Source: Paenibacillus graminis (lineage in GTDB: Bacteria > Bacillota > Bacilli > Paenibacillales > Paenibacillaceae). From it: a stretch of 64,000 nt of DNA. Shown in pieces: positions 5,345 through 47,465 of this stretch. Both the position numbers and the translations under genes were made by a program. The stretch lies in contig NZ_CP009287.1 in NCBI RefSeq assembly GCF_000758705.1, forward strand, positions 4,774,001-4,838,000, written 5' to 3'. The stretch's first letter is position 1. Each line of letters opens with the position of its first letter. The notes under the pieces were generated by a model that saw only the letters and a list, made by a program, of their open reading frames with translations, ran no database searches and was not told where the DNA came from.

Positions 5345-6382
5345 ATGACGCAGGAACAACTTCACACCACCATTCAATCTGAGGCTGAAGCAGCAGGCTT
5401 TTCGGGAACCGTACTTGTAAAAAGCGGTACCCAGGCTGCAGCCTCCGGCGCATATGGCTACGCCGACAAAGCAAACACAAGACCCAACCGTCCGGACACA
5501 AGGTATGGCAATGCTTCCGGCTCCAAGCTGTTCACAGCGATTGCCGTCTGCCAGTTGGTAGAGCAGGGCAGGCTTGCACTGGACAGCAAAGTCATGAATA
5601 TTCTGGAGCAGTCAGAGTTTCCCCAGTTCAGCACTGACATCACTGTTCATCACCTGCTGACCCATAGCTCGGGCATTCCCGATTATTTTGATGAAGAGAC
5701 GATGGATGATTTCGCCTCGCTGTGGGCAACACGGCCGATGTACCAGGTTCGGGAGCTTAAGGACTTCCTGCCGATGTTTCAAAAGCTGCCGATGAAATTC
5801 ACGCCAGGGACCAGATTCCATTACAATAACGCGGGGTACATTCTGCTCGGGCTGCTTGTGGAGAAGCTAGGCGGGATGGCATTCACGGATGTTGTGGAAC
5901 AGTATGTCTTTAAGGCTAGCGGGATGGCAGACTCGGGGTATTTTACACTGGATGCACTCCCTGCCAATACGGCCCATGGATACATAGTGAAAGAAGACGG
6001 AACCTGGACCACCAACATCTACTCTATTCCGGTAAAAGGAGGCGCCGACGGCGGCGCGTTCGTTACTGCTCCGGATATGCTGCTGCTGTGGGAAGGGCTG
6101 CTCCAGCATAAGCTGCTGGGACCGGAGCTGACTGCCCTGCTGCTTACCCCTCACATTCATGAGGACAAAGAAGAATATTACGGCTACGGGGTGTGGATTA
6201 CAAAACGCGGCGGCGGGGTCTACAAATACCATGTGATGGGCTACGACCCCGGCGTATCCTTCCACTCTGCTTACTATCCGGCCAGCGGCATTGCCACTGC
6301 CGTTCTCTGCAACCACAGCCGGGGCGCATACCGGATGATGCGGGCGATTGAGGATTGCTTGGACTCATATACGGATATATAA
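5345..6382 (+). CDS. Beta-lactamase family serine hydrolase
   Basis: A 345-residue class C beta-lactamase/DD-peptidase-fold hydrolase. The nucleophile motif SGSK (Ser58-x-x-Lys61) and the YNN triad (HYNNAGY, about 160) are visible, and HVMGYDPG near the C-terminus probably replaces the KTG box. No signal peptide or membrane segment is seen, so it is likely cytoplasmic, unlike secreted penicillin-binding proteins. The start is ATG 5345 because AGGAGG lies at 5331-5336; an upstream ATG at 5303 has none. Such proteins act as esterases, D-amino-peptidases or amide hydrolases. It is a single gene, divergent from the DUF1177 operon; a shared role is possible but unsupported. Confidence 0.87.
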   Translation: MTQEQLHTTIQSEAEAAGFSGTVLVKSGTQAAASGAYGYADKANTRPNRPDTRYGNASGSKLFTAIAVCQLVEQGRLALDSKVMNILEQSEFPQFSTDITVHHLLTHSSGIPDYFDEETMDDFASLWATRPMYQVRELKDFLPMFQKLPMKFTPGTRFHYNNAGYILLGLLVEKLGGMAFTDVVEQYVFKASGMADSGYFTLDALPANTAHGYIVKEDGTWTTNIYSIPVKGGADGGAFVTAPDMLLLWEGLLQHKLLGPELTALLLTPHIHEDKEEYYGYGVWITKRGGGVYKYHVMGYDPGVSFHSAYYPASGIATAVLCNHSRGAYRMMRAIEDCLDSYTDI

Positions 6383-6502
6383 CACGGGCAGAATTCGAAC
6401 ACCGGTTTTACATTTAATTATAAAAGATGGGTTGTTTTTCATTTTAAAGCATCATAAGATGGGTTCAGGCATCGATGTACTCTAAATGAAAGAGAAGATA
6501 AT

Positions 6503-6958
6503 ATGAACGTAAACATTGAAGAAATACCATCCTGTAAAATTGTATATATGAGACAGACGGGTCCTTATGGAATGGCCAACTTACAGTTAATGGATAAATT
6601 TAAAGGCTGGGTAGAATCTGATTCAGTTACTAGTAGTCTGTCTGTTATCCTCGGGATTGCCCAAGACAATCCGGCATGGGTGAAACCGGAAAATTGCCGC
6701 TACGATGCATGTCTGGTAGTTCCAGAAGATTACTGTGTACATTCTGATGAAGTCAGCGTGGGTAATATTAGCGGAGGAAGCTACGCTGTATTTATGATCC
6801 CTCATACCGCAGAAGCTGTGCAAAAGGCTTGGGATGAAATATTCATGGAGGTTAAGCGCGGAGGGCTCAGTCTGGATGAGACAAGACCCATCCTGGAGCG
6901 GTACACCGTTGAACTTGTGAATCATCATTATTGCGAAATTTGCGTGCCTGTTCAATAA
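6503..6958 (+). CDS. GyrI-like small-molecule-binding domain protein
   Basis: A 151-residue stand-alone GyrI-like / AraC effector-binding domain. The typical beta-strand start VNIEEIPSCKIVYMRQTGPYG and the later ACLVVPEDYCV, GGSYAVFMIPHT and WDEIFM segments fit the fold. No DNA-binding domain is attached. Proteins of this type bind or hydrolyse hydrophobic small molecules, or inhibit gyrase (SbmC-like). ATG 6503 follows an AGAGAAG site. It lies 120 bp after the serine hydrolase gene and is followed by intergenic repeats. A role in drug sensing or detoxification is the usual inference, not shown here. Confidence 0.8.
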   Translation: MNVNIEEIPSCKIVYMRQTGPYGMANLQLMDKFKGWVESDSVTSSLSVILGIAQDNPAWVKPENCRYDACLVVPEDYCVHSDEVSVGNISGGSYAVFMIPHTAEAVQKAWDEIFMEVKRGGLSLDETRPILERYTVELVNHHYCEICVPVQ

Positions 6959-6989: not shown

Positions 6990-7222
6990 AGCAGCTGCGC
7001 CGTCCTTCACTGGACCTTCATGAATCCGGCGGCAATGCCAAGTGAAAAAAAGATCACTAATTCGCCACAGCACACTGCTCTCCGCAGTCTAAGTTGGAAA
7101 AAGGATCACTAACTCAGCTCATTCCGCTCCTGAAGAAGTATTATTGCCCAATTAAGTTTACTTTTTCCACTTAAATCTCTCATTTGGTGATTTTGGAGGG
7201 GAAATAAGTTCCCTTTTTCCAA
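6990..7222. repeat. Intergenic converging repeat element, TGGAAAAAG family, copy 1
   Basis: Four units of about 51-52 bp. Two face forward (around 7041 and 7093) and two face backward (CTTTTTCC at 7161 and 7213), so the unit heads converge on a centre near 7130. The inner pair forms a long imperfect inverted repeat, 66 bp between TGG 7095 and CTTTTTCC 7161, the same distance as in copies at 25957 and 42387. A left flank containing GCTGCGCCGTCCTTCACTGG (from about 6993) resembles flanks at about 25820 and 42030. No gene is supported in 6959-7496. Confidence 0.8.
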
Positions 7223-7301
7223 CTAGCGGTTGTTCATCTGCTTCTTCGCCAGCGAGAGGTGGCAAGAGGCAATTGAATCCGGCTGGATACGACCCTGCTG
7301 G

Positions 7302-14950: not shown

Positions 14951-15205
14951 GAAATCAGAGGTGTTTTTACCTCTTATTTCCTCCTATAACCCACTTCACG
15001 CCAAATCAGAGGTATTTTTACCTCTCATTCCCTCCTATAGCCCACTTCATGCCAAATGAGAGGTACTTTTACCTCTCATTTCCTCCTATAGCCCACTTCA
15101 TGCCAAATGAGAGGTACTTTTACCTCTCATTTCCTCCTACAGCTCGCTTCCCGCCAGTTGAGAGGTACTTTTACCTCTCATTCCCACTTACAGCCCACCT
15201 GCTCA
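14951..15205. repeat. Tandem array of five 51-bp hairpin units
   Basis: The GAGGTR landmark recurs at 14958, 15009, 15060, 15111 and 15162, exactly 51 bp apart. The best unit holds a perfect 11-bp stem, AATGAGAGGTA and TACCTCTCATT, around loop CTTT, followed by a 25-nt spacer CCTCCTATAGCCCACTTCAT plus a few bases. Because 51 is a multiple of three the array reads as 17-codon repeats, but no ribosome site or clear gene is present. It fills the spoIIM to EndoQ-like gene gap (14787-15220). Confidence 0.93.
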
Positions 15206-20984: not shown

Positions 20985-21074
20985 CCTTAAAGTTTTGTAA
21001 GCGATGCTTACAGTATTACTTTCGTACAAAACTTGCTTCGGAAGCATACGCTTGAGTTTTGTAAGCAATGCTTA
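20985..21074 (-). promoter_or_regulatory. Structured bkdB leader with repeated GTTTTGTAAGC motif
   Basis: On the plus strand GTTTTGTAAGCGATGCTTA (20992-21010) recurs with one change at 21056-21074, and GTACAAAAC lies between them in inverted orientation. In the transcript this gives ACAAAACTTTAAGGAG directly at the bkdB ribosome site and alternative stem pairings. Related leaders precede bkdAA, spoIIIAF, spoIIIAH, accC and punA. Confidence 0.5.
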
Positions 21075-21099: not shown

Positions 21100-21335
21100 A
21101 ACTAGGTGGAAAAAGTATAACTAATCCGCCGAAATCCTGGCCGTAAAAGGATTTAGTGGGATTTTGTACACTTAATTCCTGCATATTCATCCCATATACC
21201 TATTTCCAGCCGAAATAGTGGTACTTTTTCCAACATAGAGTATTCCTTAAGCAAAATAAGCTCGATTAAAGATACTTTTTCCAACATAAGCTTCTTCATA
21301 AGCCGAATGAGCTCGGTTAGTGGTCCTTTTTCCAC
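21100..21335. repeat. Converging TGGAAAAAG-family element, copy 2
   Basis: One forward unit (21100) faces three reverse units with CTTTTTC at 21224, 21275 and 21326, exactly 51 bp apart, plus a degenerate reverse unit near 21170. It closely resembles the copy at 36599-36796, including GTACACTTAATT and GCATATTCATCCCA. It lies inside the bkd gene cluster. Confidence 0.88.
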
Positions 21336-41378: not shown

Positions 41379-41849
41379 TTAAGTAGATTCCCCGTCGTCC
41401 TTGCCCAGCCGGATCTCATGAATGGCAGACGTGACGGTGTTGACATACAGCACCCCGCTGCATTCCGGATAAATCAGCAAATAGGGCAGAAGTGTATCCC
41501 GGAGGCTGCTTCCGGTGAATTCCAGCGTTTTGCGGGGGCGGGAGAGGATCACCAAATAGAACGAGTCCTCTTCCTTGCTCGCGACATAATCGATGAACAG
41601 CCTGCTGTACATGGAAGACCCATCGACTGTAAAGGCCAACGGTATCTTCAGCTTGCCGCCGATCACCTCATAACCTGCCTCTTCCAGCAAATCGATGGAG
41701 GGGTGAGGCAAAATGACTGTATTGAGCGGCAGCTTGTCCTTGATGAACGAACGCGGGGAGTTTTGCAGCCATATGTAAATCCGGTAAATGACAAATATTG
41801 CGGCTGCCAGTCCAATTAACGCCATAACGGCCTTATCAGAGCTCGCCAA
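41379..41849 (-). CDS. Conserved hypothetical membrane-anchored protein
   Basis: A 156-residue protein with one N-terminal transmembrane segment (about 9-28, LIGLAAAIFVIYRIYIWL) and a mixed alpha/beta cytosolic or extracellular domain (KLPLNTVILPHPSIDLLEEA; FYLVILSRPRKTLEF; LLPYLLIYPECSGVLYV). The TTG at 41849 is preferred because GAGGTGAT, a near-perfect anti-16S match, lies 8 bp upstream; GTG/ATG codons at 41858 and 41855 overlap that site. It lies 30 bp upstream of argR, likely cotranscribed. I do not recognise a named family. Confidence 0.7.
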   Translation of the reverse strand: MASSDKAVMALIGLAAAIFVIYRIYIWLQNSPRSFIKDKLPLNTVILPHPSIDLLEEAGYEVIGGKLKIPLAFTVDGSSMYSRLFIDYVASKEEDSFYLVILSRPRKTLEFTGSSLRDTLLPYLLIYPECSGVLYVNTVTSAIHEIRLGKDDGEST

Positions 41850-42019
41850 TTCCATCACCTCGGTGAATAATTCGCGCGCAGCCCCGTGAAATCCTGCTTT
41901 TGCCGCCGAAATCCAGCCGAACCTGACAGTTACGAATGGCTTCTGGAGGAAGTTAAGGATAGACTAACTTATTCCTTGTGATTTTGCAAAAAAGGACGCA
42001 AACCCTCTATGATAACAGA

Positions 42020-42512
42020 ATGAAACCGCTGCGCCGTCTCTCGCCGGACAGTCCAGCCGTCTTAAGAATCGAACTTGGTGTTATAGTGAACCCTTTGGCT
42101 CACAAGGTTGTCACCGGTCATCCTGGCACCATTCTTAAGTTCAGCATGCCCATGCAACGACTCCCCATGTCCTGCAGCAACTCCAAGTGGAAAAAGGGTA
42201 ACTCACTTGCTCATGCGCGCAGTTCTCCGCAGGTCAAGGGAAAAAGGGTAACAGTTGGTTTGCACCCTAATCTCTGCTGGTTTAGTGGAAAAAGGGTAAC
42301 TCAGTTGGCTTGCACCCTATTCTCTGAAGGTTAAGTGGAAAAAGAGTAACTAATCTGCTCGGATCCCCTGTTCTCCGCAGACAAGGCGGAAAAAGATACA
42401 CTAATTCAGCTCATTTCGCCATTAGAAGTGGAAAATAACCCAATTAAGTTTTCTTTTTCCACTTAAATCCCATTATTTTGAATTTTCGGTAAAATAAGCT
42501 CCCTTTTTCCAA
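42020..42512. repeat. Converging TGGAAAAAG-family element, copy 5 (longest)
   Basis: Five forward units with the A-run beginning at 42191, 42241, 42289, 42339 and 42390 (48-51 bp steps) plus a degenerate one at 42432 face two reverse units (CTTTTTCC at 42453 and 42503). Forward units read AAAAAGGGTAACTC. The left flank at about 42030 shares CGCTGCGCCGTC and CCGGACA with copies 1 and 3. It directly abuts the 30-unit array. 41850-42020 shows nothing else. Confidence 0.87.
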
Positions 42513-42559
42513 TTAACAACCTGCAATGGAGCTCGTAAGCAGGCGTTCGTTGAAATATG

Positions 42560-44110
42560 GGCACCACACGGCCTCCAATGCTCTAACATCAGCATTTCTG
42601 CCGTTGTTTCCAGACAAAACGGCCTCCAATGCTCTAACAACAGCAATTCTGCCGTTGTTTCCAGACAAAACGGCCTCCAATGCTCTAACAACAGCAATTC
42701 TGCCGTTGTTTGCAGGCAAAGCGGCCTCCGACGCTCCAACAACAGCAATTCTGCCGTTGTTTGCAGGCAAAGCGGCCTCCGACGCTCCAACAACAGCAAT
42801 TCTGCCGTTGTTTGCAGGCAAAGCGGCCTCCGACGCTCCAACAACAGCAATTCTGCCGTTGTTTGCAGGCAAAGCGGCCTCCGACGCTCCAACAACAGCA
42901 ATTCTGCCGTTGTTTCCAGACCAAACGGCCTCCAATGCTCTAACAGCAGCAATTCTGCCGTTGTTTGCAGGCAAAGCGGCCTCCGACGCTCCAACAACAG
43001 CAATTCTGCCGTTGTTTGCAGGCAAAGCGGCCTCCGACGCTCCAACATCAGCAATTCTGCCGTTGTTTGCAGGCAAAGCGGCCTCCGACGCTCCAACAAC
43101 AGCAATTCTGCCGTTGTTTGCAGGCAAAGCGGCCTCCGATGCTCTAACAACAGCAATTCTGCCGTTGTTTGCAGGCAAAGCGGCCTCCGACGCTCCAACA
43201 ACAGCAATTCTGCCGTTGTTTCCAGACAAAACGGCCTCCAATGCTCTAACAACAGCAATTCTGCCGTTGTTTGCAGGCAAAGCGGCCTCCGACGCTCCAA
43301 CAACAGCAATTCTGCCGTTGTTTGCAGGCAAAGCGGCCTCCGACGCTCCAACAACAGCAATTCTGCCGTTGTTTCCAGACCAAACGGGCTTCAATGCTCT
43401 AACAGCAGCAATTCTGCCGTTGTTTGCAGGCAAAGCGGCCTCCGACGCTCCAACAACAGCAATTCTGCCGTTGTTTGCAGGCAAAGCGGCCTCCGACGCT
43501 CCAACATCAGCAATTCTGCCGTTGTTTGCAGGCAAAGCGGCCTCCGACGCTCCAACAACAGCAATTCTGCCGTTGTTTCCAGACCAAACGGCCTCCGACG
43601 CTCCAACAACAGCAATTCTGCCGTTGTTTCCAGACCAAACGGCCTCCAATGCTCTAACAACAGCAATTCTGCCGTTGTTTGCAGGCAAAGCGGCCTCCGA
43701 CGCTCCAACATCAGCAATTCTGCCGTTGTTTGCAGGCAAAGCGGCCTCCGACGCTCCAACAACAGCAATTCTGCCGTTGTTTGCAGGCAAAGCGGCCTCC
43801 GACGCTCCAACAACAGCAATTCTGCCGTTGTTTCCAGACCAAACGGCCTCCGACGCTCCAACAACAGCAATTCTGCCGTTGTTTCCAGACAAAACGGCCT
43901 CCAATGCTCTAACAACAGCAATTCTGCCGTTGTTTGCAGGCAAAGCGGCCTCCGACGCTCCAACAACAGCAATTCTGCCGTTGTTTGCAGGCAAAGCGGC
44001 CTCCGACGCTCCAACAACAGCAATTCTGCCGTTGTTTCCAGACCAAACGGCCTCCGACGCTCCAACAACAGCAATTCTGCCGTTGTTTCCAGACCAAACG
44101 GCCTCTGCAC
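42560..44110. repeat. Thirty-unit 51-bp tandem array with a hairpin in every unit
   Basis: The landmark CCGTTGTTT recurs every 51 bp from 42601 to 44080, giving exactly 30 units. Each contains AACAACAGCA, loop ATTC, TGCCGTTGTT; on the minus strand this is a complete 10-bp stem (AACAACGGCA with TGCTGTTGTT, one G-U pair) around GAAT. The 27-nt spacer exists in two main versions (GCAGGCAAAGCGGCCTCCGA and CCAGACAAAACGGCCTCCAA types) and recombinants. Blocks of units recur in the same order (for example from about 42920 and about 43380), showing expansion by segmental duplication. Long open frames on both strands follow from 51 being divisible by three; no ribosome site supports any of them. Confidence 0.96.
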
Positions 44111-44472
44111 GCTTGCCTGCATTGCGCATGGTTAGAACATCCATTGTTGCCTGTGCGATTTCACGCTGGTTCATTCTGTCGGACTCGATAAGCGCCCTTC
44201 ACGTCGCTCTGCTGCTTATGCGGACAGGAAAGACGTTATTCAGGAAGGATTTGTCCATTCCGCAGGACAAACCGGACTGAAGCTCCCTATTTGTCCTTTC
44301 CCCCTTATTCCAGGCTGGAAACAAACGAGATAACGGCTCCAAGTTTGAATTCGTCAGGAATGCAAGCGCCTTTTCGCAAAATGATTGCTTCTCTGTCCGC
44401 TTCAGTCTGCTGGTGAAGCCAATGCTCCTGCACCGCCTATATCAGCCTATATCAGTTCAAACTTCTAAATTG

Positions 44473-44571: not shown

Positions 44572-44630
44572 TGCTATTTGTGGGAAGCGTTTGGGAAGGC
44601 ACCCAGTAATACCGCTACCTATAAGCAAAA

Positions 44631-44655
44631 GAAACTCATCGCTTCGATGAGTTTC
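44631..44655 (-). terminator. Terminator overlapping the tlyA stop
   Basis: GAAACTCATCG and CGATGAGTTTC form a perfect 11-bp stem around CTT. On the minus strand TTTTGCTTAT follows. The tlyA stop lies inside. Confidence 0.88.
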
Positions 44656-45514
44656 CAGGGTTACTGACTTTAAAGGTCGCTGCCGCTTCCTTAATCACGG
44701 TATCGGCGAGCGCCGCGAAATCTTCGGCCTTAGGCGGTTCAGGCTGGGATGCGCCGGTCTCCGCAGCTTCAGGAAGCAGCTTCCAGTGCGCCAAAAACTC
44801 GATGTTCCCTTCACCCCCGGTAATCGGGGAGAAGGTTAAGCCTTCCAGCCGGTAGCCCAGCCCGGAAGCCATGCCAAGCACACTCACCAGCACCTCTTTG
44901 TGGACAGCAGGTTCACGGACCACACCGGACTTTCCCACCTTTTCCCGCCCAGCTTCGAACTGCGGTTTGATCAGTGCAGCGATATCGGCGGGACGTTCAA
45001 GCAGGGCGATAAGCGGCGGCAGAATAATCTTCAATGATATAAAAGACACATCAATGCTGGCAAAGTCGGGAACCGGCCCCTGCAAGTCCGGCGGGGTCAT
45101 ATAACGGAAATTCGTCTGCTCCATCACGCTTACCCGCTCATCCTTGCGCAGTCTCCAGTCCAGCTGGTTGTAGCCGACATCAATCGCGTAGACATGGCTT
45201 GCTCCGTTCTGGAGGGCGCAATCGGTGAAGCCTCCTGTAGAAGAGCCTATATCCAGCATCACGCGCCCGTTCAGATCAATGCCGAACTGCCGCAGCGCCT
45301 TCTCCAGCTTCAGGCCGCCCCGGCTGACATAAGGGTGCACAGCGCCTTTTACCCTCAAAACCGCGCTGCGCGGCACCTTCATGCCTGCCTTCTCGATCCG
45401 TTCCTCATCCGCAAGCACCAGCCCGGCCATAATGGCCGCCTTGGCCTTCTCGCGGCTCTCAAAAAATCCTTGTTCCACTAACAGTACATCGATCCGTTCC
45501 TTAGGGTGTTCCAT
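44636..45514 (-). CDS. tlyA: TlyA-family rRNA 2'-O-methyltransferase / hemolysin A
   Basis: A 292-residue protein: N-terminal S4 RNA-binding domain (RIDVLLVEQGFFESREKAKA), then VSRGGLKLEKAL and a FtsJ/RrmJ-like methyltransferase domain with MLDIGSSTGGFTDCALQNGA (SAM site) and the KDKE-type Lys in ALIKPQFEAGR. Homologs methylate 16S and 23S rRNA. The C-terminus has a Pro/Glu/Ala tail not typical of the core family. ATG 45514 follows GGGAG; upstream ATGs lack sites. It follows dxs by 46 bp, as in Bacillales. Confidence 0.93.
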   Translation of the reverse strand: MEHPKERIDVLLVEQGFFESREKAKAAIMAGLVLADEERIEKAGMKVPRSAVLRVKGAVHPYVSRGGLKLEKALRQFGIDLNGRVMLDIGSSTGGFTDCALQNGASHVYAIDVGYNQLDWRLRKDERVSVMEQTNFRYMTPPDLQGPVPDFASIDVSFISLKIILPPLIALLERPADIAALIKPQFEAGREKVGKSGVVREPAVHKEVLVSVLGMASGLGYRLEGLTFSPITGGEGNIEFLAHWKLLPEAAETGASQPEPPKAEDFAALADTVIKEAAATFKVSNPGNSSKR

Positions 45515-45560
45515 GGTCATCTCCCGATTGTTCTTAGGGTTACCGCTCCGACTATCCTGT

Positions 45561-47465
45561 TCAGGAGGTTGAAGTCGTCTTGTAGGCAAAAGCGCTCGAT
45601 GCCTTCATCGCTTTGACGCGGCTGATTACCGCTTCAACGGTCAGTCCGGTTTGCTGGCGCTGCTCTTTGATCGAGCCATGCTCCACAAAGATATCCGGCA
45701 CGCCCATCAAATGGACCCTGGCGTCATAAATTTCATGCTCCGCATAATATTCAAGCACTGCGCTGCCCAAACTTCCGGCCTCACAGGCTTCCTCCAGCAC
45801 AATCATCCCTGTTCCCGCATGGGCCAGGTCCAGCAGCATGGAGCTGTCCAGCGGCTTCAGGAACCGGGCGTTGACAACCCCTACCTGAATGCCTTCACGC
45901 TTCAGCAGCTCCGCCGCTTCTTCAGCCACCTGAACCATCGGCCCGCAGGCCAGCACAGCGTAATCATCGCCTGAACGCAGCCGCTCCCAGGAGCCGATAG
46001 GCAGGGATTTCAGCTCGGCGTCCAGTGCCACGCCAGTGCCGTCAATGCGCGGATACCGGTAGGCAATCGGCCCGTCATTATATTCAAGCGCCGTCTTCAT
46101 CATGTGGCGCAGCTCATTCTCATCCTTCGGCATCATCATTACCATATTCGGGATGTGGCGCATAAAAGCAATATCGTATACCCCTTGATGCGTTTCACCG
46201 TCAGCACCCACAAAGCCTGCACGGTCTATGGCGAACATGACATTAGCATTATGGCGGCAAATATCATGCACAATCTGATCGTATGCCCGCTGCATAAAGG
46301 TGGAGTAGACGGCATAGACCGGCTTCATTCCCTCCATGGCCAGCGCTGCGCAGAGCGTTGCCGCATGCTGCTCAGCAATGCCGACATCGATCATCCGGTC
46401 GGGAAACTCCTTAGCGAACGGGAACAAGCCTGATCCGCCGGGCATTGCCGGTGTAACGGCGATCAGCCGTTTGTCCTCACGGCCCAGCTCAATCAGCGTC
46501 TCGCCGAACACTTCGGTGTACATCGGATTGCCGACAGCCTTCAGAGACTGGCCGGACTCAATTTTGTAGGGTGAAATGGCATGTGACTTATAGAAATCGG
46601 TTTCAGCCGGTTTATACCCTTTGCCTTTGGTAGTCAGAACATGCACAAATACAGGTCCGGACACATTATCCGCCTGATGGAAGGTATCGATCAGCTTCTC
46701 TACGTCATGGCCGTCAACCGGGCCAAGGTAAGTAAAGCCAAGCTCTTCGAACAGCACACCGGGCACCATCATATATTTGAGGCTGTCCTTTACATTCTGT
46801 GCTGTCTTGGCGAGTCTTCCGCCGATGGCCGGAATCTTCTTGAGCAGCCCCTCCACTTCATCCTTGGCGCGCAGATAATGGCGGTCCGAGCGGATTTTGC
46901 TCAGATAATTATGCATTGCCCCTACGTTCGGAGCGATGGACATTTCGTTATCATTGAGGATAACCATCAGCTTGCGGCGTTCATGGCCGATATGGTTAAG
47001 CGCTTCAAACGCCATCCCGCCGGTAAGCGCTCCGTCCCCGATTACAGCGATAACCTTGTTGTCTTCGCCTTTGAGATCACGGGCCACCGCCATTCCCATG
47101 GCCGCAGACAGGGAGGTGCTGCTGTGTCCGGCTTCCCAGACATCATGCTCGCTCTCCGCACGTTTCACAAAACCGCACAACCCGTCCTTCTTGCGCAGTG
47201 TGTCAAAACGGTCCTGGCGGCCGGTAAGGATTTTGTGGACATATGCCTGATGCCCTACGTCGTATATCATTTTGTCCCGGGGACTGTCATAACAGTAGTG
47301 CAGGGCCAGCGTGAGCTCCACTACCCCCAGATTGGAGCCGAGGTGCCCGCCGGTAACCGTAAGCTTTTCGATCAGAAACCGGCGGATCTCCTCCGCAAGG
47401 GTAGCCAGCTCCTCGACTGACAAAGCTTTAAGTTGCTGAGGATCATTTATTTGTGGAAGCAGCAC
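45561..47465 (-). CDS. dxs: 1-deoxy-D-xylulose-5-phosphate synthase
   Basis: The 634-residue enzyme makes DXP from pyruvate and glyceraldehyde-3-phosphate, first step of the MEP isoprenoid pathway. Thiamine-diphosphate features: [31 protein letters not shown] and [13 protein letters not shown]; the transketolase middle domain has [20 protein letters not shown] 47465 is taken as start (GGGGA 7 bp upstream); the frame extends further with ATG 47513 but without a ribosome site. It lies between ispA and tlyA in one long operon. Confidence 0.96.

Follow-up and report, generated by a model that had tools for sequence, protein, structure and literature searches.

Interspersed hairpin repeats are common, and the origin of copies without an autonomous partner is largely unsettled. 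A strong strand bias on both chromosome arms is a property of KOPS, and the KOPS/SRS motifs of FtsK and SpoIIIE are octamers. The MIRU of mycobacteria are interspersed intergenic tandem units, similar in length to the units described below, and are oriented with their flanking genes. REP sequences and REPINs, known together with RAYT (TnpA-REP), are short intergenic hairpins present in many copies. The REP hairpin has a 5′ GT[AG]G tetranucleotide at its foot according to part of PMC6006769, and the relevant part of PMC3116915 describes REPIN doublets as inverted repeats and reports that in P. fluorescens SBW25 REP sequences in tandem arrays run forward at ~2 Mb and reverse at ~4 Mb, an arm-wise opposition that is the closest precedent for the polarity reported here. 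IS200/IS605 elements and their non-autonomous derivatives likewise combine hairpins with fork polarity. Parts of PMC5371812 and PMC6006769 describe a known single-strand route for the IS, and the former adds that IS200-type elements use the lagging-strand template, which sets their polarity.

The window analysed here is a stretch of 64,000 nucleotides from the Paenibacillus graminis chromosome. It contains on its minus strand, at 42569..44113, an array of 30 units of 51 bp (Tandem Repeats Finder and unit listing) belonging to a repeat termed family A. Tandem Repeats Finder returned a period of 51, 30.3 copies, 93% match, 0% indels and a score of 2549, and a minus-strand motif search found 30 head-to-tail units with all 29 of 29 steps exactly 51 bp long, which bears out the original prediction of exactly 30 units at a strict 51-bp step. 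Each unit comprises a stem of 10 bp and a loop of 4 nt, as had been proposed, together with a 27-nt linker. In the sense direction the hairpin reads AACAACGGCA-GAAT-TGCTGTTGTT, where the sense strand of family A is the minus strand of the window and the direction in which the fork moves here. The commonest unit makes up half of the array (15/30) and linker variants recur blockwise, so the earlier view that spacer versions repeat in blocks and that the array grew by segmental duplication is plausible, and the absence of spacer diversity was rightly noted. A CRISPR was considered and rejected because the linkers recur within the array rather than standing as unique spacers between constant repeats.

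Adjoining the array is an element of a second family, D (42185..42515, minus strand), which carries inverted modules with GGAAAAAGG / CCTTTTTCC and was delimited by Tandem Repeats Finder, own-genome search and copy alignment. Its 50-bp tandem units occupy 42185–42351 and its best family match is at 42430–42515. A shortened A–D spacer (42516..42568, minus strand) forms the 51-bp gap from array to D element, and a longer version is found in P. jilunlii and at other loci. The upstream flanking gene is tlyA (44636..45589, minus strand; from the list of open reading frames, with the name from the original prediction and an ortholog search in relatives). The intrinsic terminator of tlyA, found by terminator scan at 44630..44656 on the minus strand, lies between tlyA and the array, and by eye the same hairpin is found 3′ of tlyA in relatives. 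Downstream lies the gene of a conserved 159-aa protein (41379..41858, minus strand; list of open reading frames and tblastn in 20 relatives). The array had been placed between tlyA and argR, which is correct as a location, except that the 159-aa gene also lies between the array and argR. Across 20 relatives the gap from tlyA to the next gene measures 76–124 bp in 12, 263–659 bp in seven and 4.2 kb in one. At this locus P. jilunlii has D and the A–D spacer (78% over 91 bp to the copy at locus L199), and a profile search found no A hairpin there against 30 units in this genome, so the module has either expanded in one lineage or been lost in the other. The 4.2 kb of extra DNA in the tlyA gap of Paenibacillus sp. 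S150 (G027; locus L078) includes transposase-like pieces, recognised by eye, along with weak D matches and a B-like unit. The tlyA gap of a further relative, G033 (L076, ~6333–6650), holds a short array of ~52-bp units with ATACAACAAT, seen by eye, and a similar 52-bp array lies at L257 9206–9386.

Family A is dispersed across the chromosome. A query spanning two unit lengths gave 231 matches in the 7,166,464-bp chromosome, of which a part was listed. About 1.2 Mb was sampled, including the window, stretches around A matches, nine spaced 20-kb stretches, one around an IS200 distant from dnaA, and further stretches around B and D copies; most stretches were picked for holding repeats. The search for further arrays proposed in the original prediction proved productive, as a profile search of this ~1.2 Mb found the same hairpin, singly or arrayed, at 50 places, 33 with at least three units and 17 with one or two. 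An A array is present in two of the nine spaced stretches, from which a genome total of about 80 places can be extrapolated very roughly. The consensus hairpin is AACAACGGCA-GAAA-TGCCGTTGTT, and across the 312 distinct units of the 50 loci it is conserved (mean 1.83 bits per position) while the linker drifts (0.93). Units are alike inside one array and differ between arrays, their number ranges from 1 to 30 per place, and among steps of up to 60 bp the length is 51 bp in 289/312 and 50, 52 or 53 bp in the other 23. Across the genus, 13 of 100 genomes contain family A, seven with at least eight matches and six with one or two. They are taken to include P. jilunlii (G015), P. helianthi (G035), Paenibacillus sp. 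S150 and Paenibacillus sp. HW567 (G091). Seven arrays of this genome have flanks in common with 8 of 17 distinct loci in relatives, and the linkers differ there, which indicates that sites are retained while sequence changes in concert. Plasmid and phage collections gave no match to the repeat, and no report recognised as this family was found among the titles and abstract beginnings of the open-licence PMC literature.

A leader-like stretch upstream of A arrays gave 12 matches, nine of them 0–35 bp before an array (L041, L030, L045, L048, L034, L038, L035, L047 and L043) and three, comprising its first half, without an array (L020, L019 and L013). Given these three matches, the leader is left out of the element. 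A DnaA-box-like sequence was noticed by eye within the leader, but most copies lack it and the idea was discarded. At L014 9224–9842 a 20-copy tandem array of 31 bp adjoins an A array, and from L013 10348 an A array passes, by eye, into short CCTCCTCACGGC repeats.

The 51-bp period extends to families of other sequence. In the window together with the nine spaced stretches, nine of ten separate arrays with a period of at least 25 have a period of 49–51, the window array included. Family B shares the period of A and has the hairpin form AATGAGAGGTA-nAAA-TACC..., and its window array (14952..15198, minus strand; AAATGAGAGGTA-AAAG-TACCTCTCATTT; Tandem Repeats Finder, hairpin layout and own-genome search) also runs with the fork. 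Family C, with the hairpin form AATCAAAGGCA-GAAA-TACCTTTGATT, forms a 51-bp-type array like B. A short 51-bp array of 2.2 copies at 21222..21334, strand not assigned, contains TACTTTTTCCA and is D-module-like by eye (Tandem Repeats Finder). Arrays of 51 bp and other sequence also occur in G007, G022, P. tritici and P. piscarius; 100-kb samples of G001, G009, G011, G014 and G028 contained none, that of G033 had one 52-bp array, and of the 80 named loci examined around argR (1.56 Mb in all) two held a 51-bp array. The period is not genus-wide, and common descent or a shared mechanism are the sole accounts we offer for it. Alignment of 51 D copies shows a sharp 5′ end and a 3′ side that is ragged at ~140, 190 or 290 bp, and by eye the element contains internal units of 51 bp as well as inverted GTGGAAAAAGG/CCTTTTTCCAC modules, and its 3′ hairpin resembles a terminator. 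The own-genome search gave 223 first-look D candidates, of which 40 were scored and listed, and also a further copy in the window (7143..7232, minus strand, with the fork). D is possibly the most abundant of these families. A co-oriented D match lies no more than 122 bp after A at 12 A places (83–122 bp in 8 of the 12), and A, spacer and D appear to form a composite element of which A is one module. A further repeat, family F, is 65 bp long and its two halves are partly inverted; it is present in the window at 20990–21066 and at 24 places in the genome. Related 64–66-bp arrays were seen at loci of G011, G012, G022, G028 and P. monticola.

Orientation was read against the direction of the replication fork, taken from the position of dnaA (domain at 1156–1356 of the contig) and from GC skew, which changes sign between 3.57 and 3.73 Mb. 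Family A runs with the fork at 49 of 50 places, its sense sequence lying on the plus strand throughout the left arm and on the minus strand throughout the right at these places, and the better strand was ahead by at least 5 bits at every one of the 50. The same holds in two relatives among the matches listed, with 38/38 places in G033 (97 of 127 matches listed; 40 of 90 first-look candidates scored) and 40/40 in G028 (53 of 65 listed; 40 of 119 scored). The G028 count assumes a terminus beyond the midpoint; with the terminus set at the exact midpoint, the place at 4.03 Mb falls against the fork and the count becomes 39/40. GC skew in G028 changes between 3.0 and 4.5 Mb. In G033 the strand switch placed the origin near 1.9 Mb before dnaA was found at 1.871 Mb. 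Each genome was read in part, and places common to several species are non-independent. The sole A place against the fork, at 6.124 Mb with two units, is a site common to G033 and G028. A recent inversion of its neighbour gene was rejected as the cause, since the gene has the same strand in all three genomes; the hairpin relic and the leading-strand neighbour in G033 and G028 mean that the site is old.

The other families share this polarity to differing degrees. Family B is with the fork at 19 of 20 places, the exception having mixed strand calls, and at 20 of 22 in a wider profile search, with misses at 1.241 and 6.900 Mb. The best-scoring D match is with the fork at all 40 places listed of the 223 candidates, three of which have a second, weak reversed match. 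A wider profile search gave 46/54, and six of the eight misses are single hits; as D holds inverted modules, the strand of weak D matches is unsure. Further arrays were oriented by eye using their A-rich loop: the C array at 3.578 Mb runs against the fork, both arrays assessed in G022 run with it, and of six in G007 four run with it and two against. Family F had been intended as a negative control, but its strands (seven minus and five plus on the left arm, 12/12 plus on the right) are themselves biased, and strand calls are uncertain in a repeat with inverted halves, so that no repeat family provided a clean negative control.

Because genes also favour one strand, polarity was compared with gene direction. 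Of the genes called, 548/731 (75%) lie on the leading strand, these calls being hexamer-scored frames made here rather than curated annotation, and at this rate at least 49/50 with the fork has P ~1e-5. The gaps that hold A are 25 tandem leading, 17 convergent, six tandem lagging and one divergent, with one place at a stretch end left out. A copies run with the fork in all 17 convergent gaps. Where both flanking genes oppose the fork, copies still keep to it (6/6 A and 2/2 B); three of the six A cases are single units and the others are arrays of 2, 10 and 17 units, and in all six the better strand led by 18–44 bits. Divergent gaps are avoided by A (1/49, compared with 78/375 among gaps of 150 bp or more; P 7e-5, the background being drawn from the same repeat-rich sample). 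The orientation of family A thus tracks the fork and not the flanking genes.

Set beside the described systems, family A has the short, intergenic, many-copy hairpins of REP/REPIN systems and differs in its head-to-tail 51-bp units and its Gram-positive host; a Y1_Tnp search found no RAYT gene flanked by the repeats in this genome. The GT[AG]G foot is not in the A consensus unit, where ...CCGGA precedes AACAACGGCA, and inverted doublets were not seen in A, whose units lie head-to-tail in one direction. A shares the hairpins and fork polarity of IS200/IS605 elements, and differs in forming gene-free tandem arrays. MIRU orientation follows flanking genes, whereas A and B copies keep to the fork against both of them. 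With KOPS/SRS motifs the likeness seen is in strand bias; A consists of 51-bp hairpin units and is strong in one clade.

Y1 transposase genes offer a second comparison. Full-length copies are with the fork in 25 of 28 cases from six genomes (G000 1/1, G007 5/5, G014 4/5, G022 2/2, G028 6/8 and G033 7/7), a count that omits fragments and genomes without a mapped dnaA. By type, the 157-aa Y1 of G028 is with the fork in 6/6, the 136-aa type is against it in 2/2 in G028 and with it in 2/2 in G022, and one of three 137-aa copies in G014 is against it. The hairpin families resemble Y1 genes in polarity but are stricter. The Y1_Tnp searches covered this genome plus 14 more, and of 18 Y1 places in relatives, each read over 8–9 kb, 16 have no A unit within that sequence. 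The single Y1 gene of this genome is part of an IS200 whose flanking hairpin is, by eye, unrelated to A. G033 and G028 share one orthologous place where a truncated IS200-like tnpA (~residues 1–100) lies 38–39 bp before an A array (L289 3460–4009 and L290 3728–4306, respectively). As a partner relic this is suggestive but not enough, and it may be chance. No insertion boundary or target site could be resolved.

The reading we favour, and to which we give about an even chance, is that the lagging-strand template captures a non-coding, REPIN-like repeat, which is subsequently amplified in place. The window array would be one module, the 51-bp hairpin unit, of an interspersed repeat that has been tandemly amplified there. 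The polarity suggests that copies spread while fork DNA was briefly single-stranded, and capture as single-stranded DNA on the lagging-strand template, as IS200-type elements are known to undergo and REPINs are thought to, would give each copy one polarity to the fork. Tolerated copies would end up in gaps seldom between divergent genes, and slippage or unequal exchange may lengthen and homogenise arrays while preserving the 51-bp step. The agent would be a lost Y1-type enzyme or the replication machinery, and the repeat would have no host function. The polarity of the repeat families themselves, that of Y1 genes and the arm-wise directions of SBW25 REP arrays favour capture on this template, and the P. 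jilunlii locus with its spacer and D but no A hairpin is counted in favour of the reading as well. Counted against it are the failure to find a propagating enzyme or to resolve an insertion boundary, the 6.124-Mb site, the anti-fork B, C and G007 arrays and the 46/54 of D. Of the roles first offered for the array, the guesses of a replication-related array and a selfish satellite are in keeping with this reading.

Two alternatives dispense with a transposase. Tentatively, A, B, D and others might form a clade-limited superfamily of ~51-nt fork-polar modules that spread and lengthen on the lagging-strand template, for which the fork itself would be the propagator and set both polarity and module length. 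Somewhat doubtful too is the proposal that a transposase was never involved and that, where forks are close together, the growing lagging strand jumps from one repeat to another as its template, so that replication would itself seed and lengthen copies of one polarity. Template switching would account for the same polarity and similar module length in families unlike in sequence, and agrees with the failure to find a RAYT-type enzyme associated with the repeats. However, it does not by itself explain arrival at distant sites, no junction was resolved, and the truncated tnpA before an A array at one orthologous place counts against it.

A role for the host is less probable again. Here the repeats would act in a polar manner, for example as a guide for a DNA translocase or in lagging-strand priming, and their direction would be under selection. 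Polarity along whole arms in three genomes, a hairpin conserved above a drifting linker and the 8/17 relative loci with flanks common to seven arrays here would all be expected of such a role. Against it, no more than 7 of 100 genus genomes carry family A strongly, its units vary from 1 to 30, the closely related P. jilunlii has no A unit at the window locus, and an anti-fork copy has persisted in three species.

A structural RNA was one of the inferences of the original prediction, which noted that G–U pairing would make a minus-strand RNA fold better; a structural RNA whose strand is marked by G–U pairs is not supported. A transcribed hairpin ladder from the minus strand, for example in a 3′ UTR, would fit the commonest window unit, in which the A–C mismatch of the plus strand becomes a minus-strand G–U pair and RNA folding is better on the minus strand, as predicted (−19.5 versus −14.0 kcal/mol), and would also fit the avoidance of divergent gaps. 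The consensus A hairpin, however, folds about equally on its two strands (RNA −20.9 and −20.3; DNA −15.1 and −15.1), and the stems of the family hold no sense-strand wobble excess, with 71 sense G–T against 93 A–C cells in 312 units from 50 loci. Sense G–T is common at one stem pair in family B, so the wobble argument is settled for A only. Orientation tracks the fork, even at the six A and two B places where both flanking genes are opposed, the tlyA terminator precedes the array, a scan found three promoter-like sites in place of 2.2 expected with none on the minus strand, and Rfam models at gathering score had no match in the window. The proposed covariance test was run between families on 62 distinct rows and gave pairing above shuffles, in 86.6% of cells (shuffles: mean 73.4, maximum 76.9), along with 81 two-sided changes (shuffles: 35, maximum 48); slid controls had 33–60% of cells paired. 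As most of this signal is one A–B contrast, and the register is wrong in at least three of the eight rows placed by hand, it lends the stem weak support. From its sequence, a transcribed role for the array appears unlikely, and we give the structural or regulatory RNA reading little credence. A protein of 17-residue repeats can be set aside almost entirely, in agreement with the first judgement that the array is non-coding: although long open frames run through it on the minus strand (553 aa) and the plus strand (584 aa), translation is unsupported, no homologue reached E ≤ 0.001 among 8000 candidates scored, 23/312 A steps (50, 52 or 53 bp) shift the frame, and five of six frames are open in 42–48 of 50 loci, which makes openness an outcome of composition.

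The near-complete replication polarity described here is separable from transcription and is common to three families with ~51-bp modules. If capture on the lagging-strand template is the correct reading, the copies would be a natural record of the sites at which the fork's single-stranded DNA is captured, and their lagging-strand origin would be testable in a culturable soil genus.
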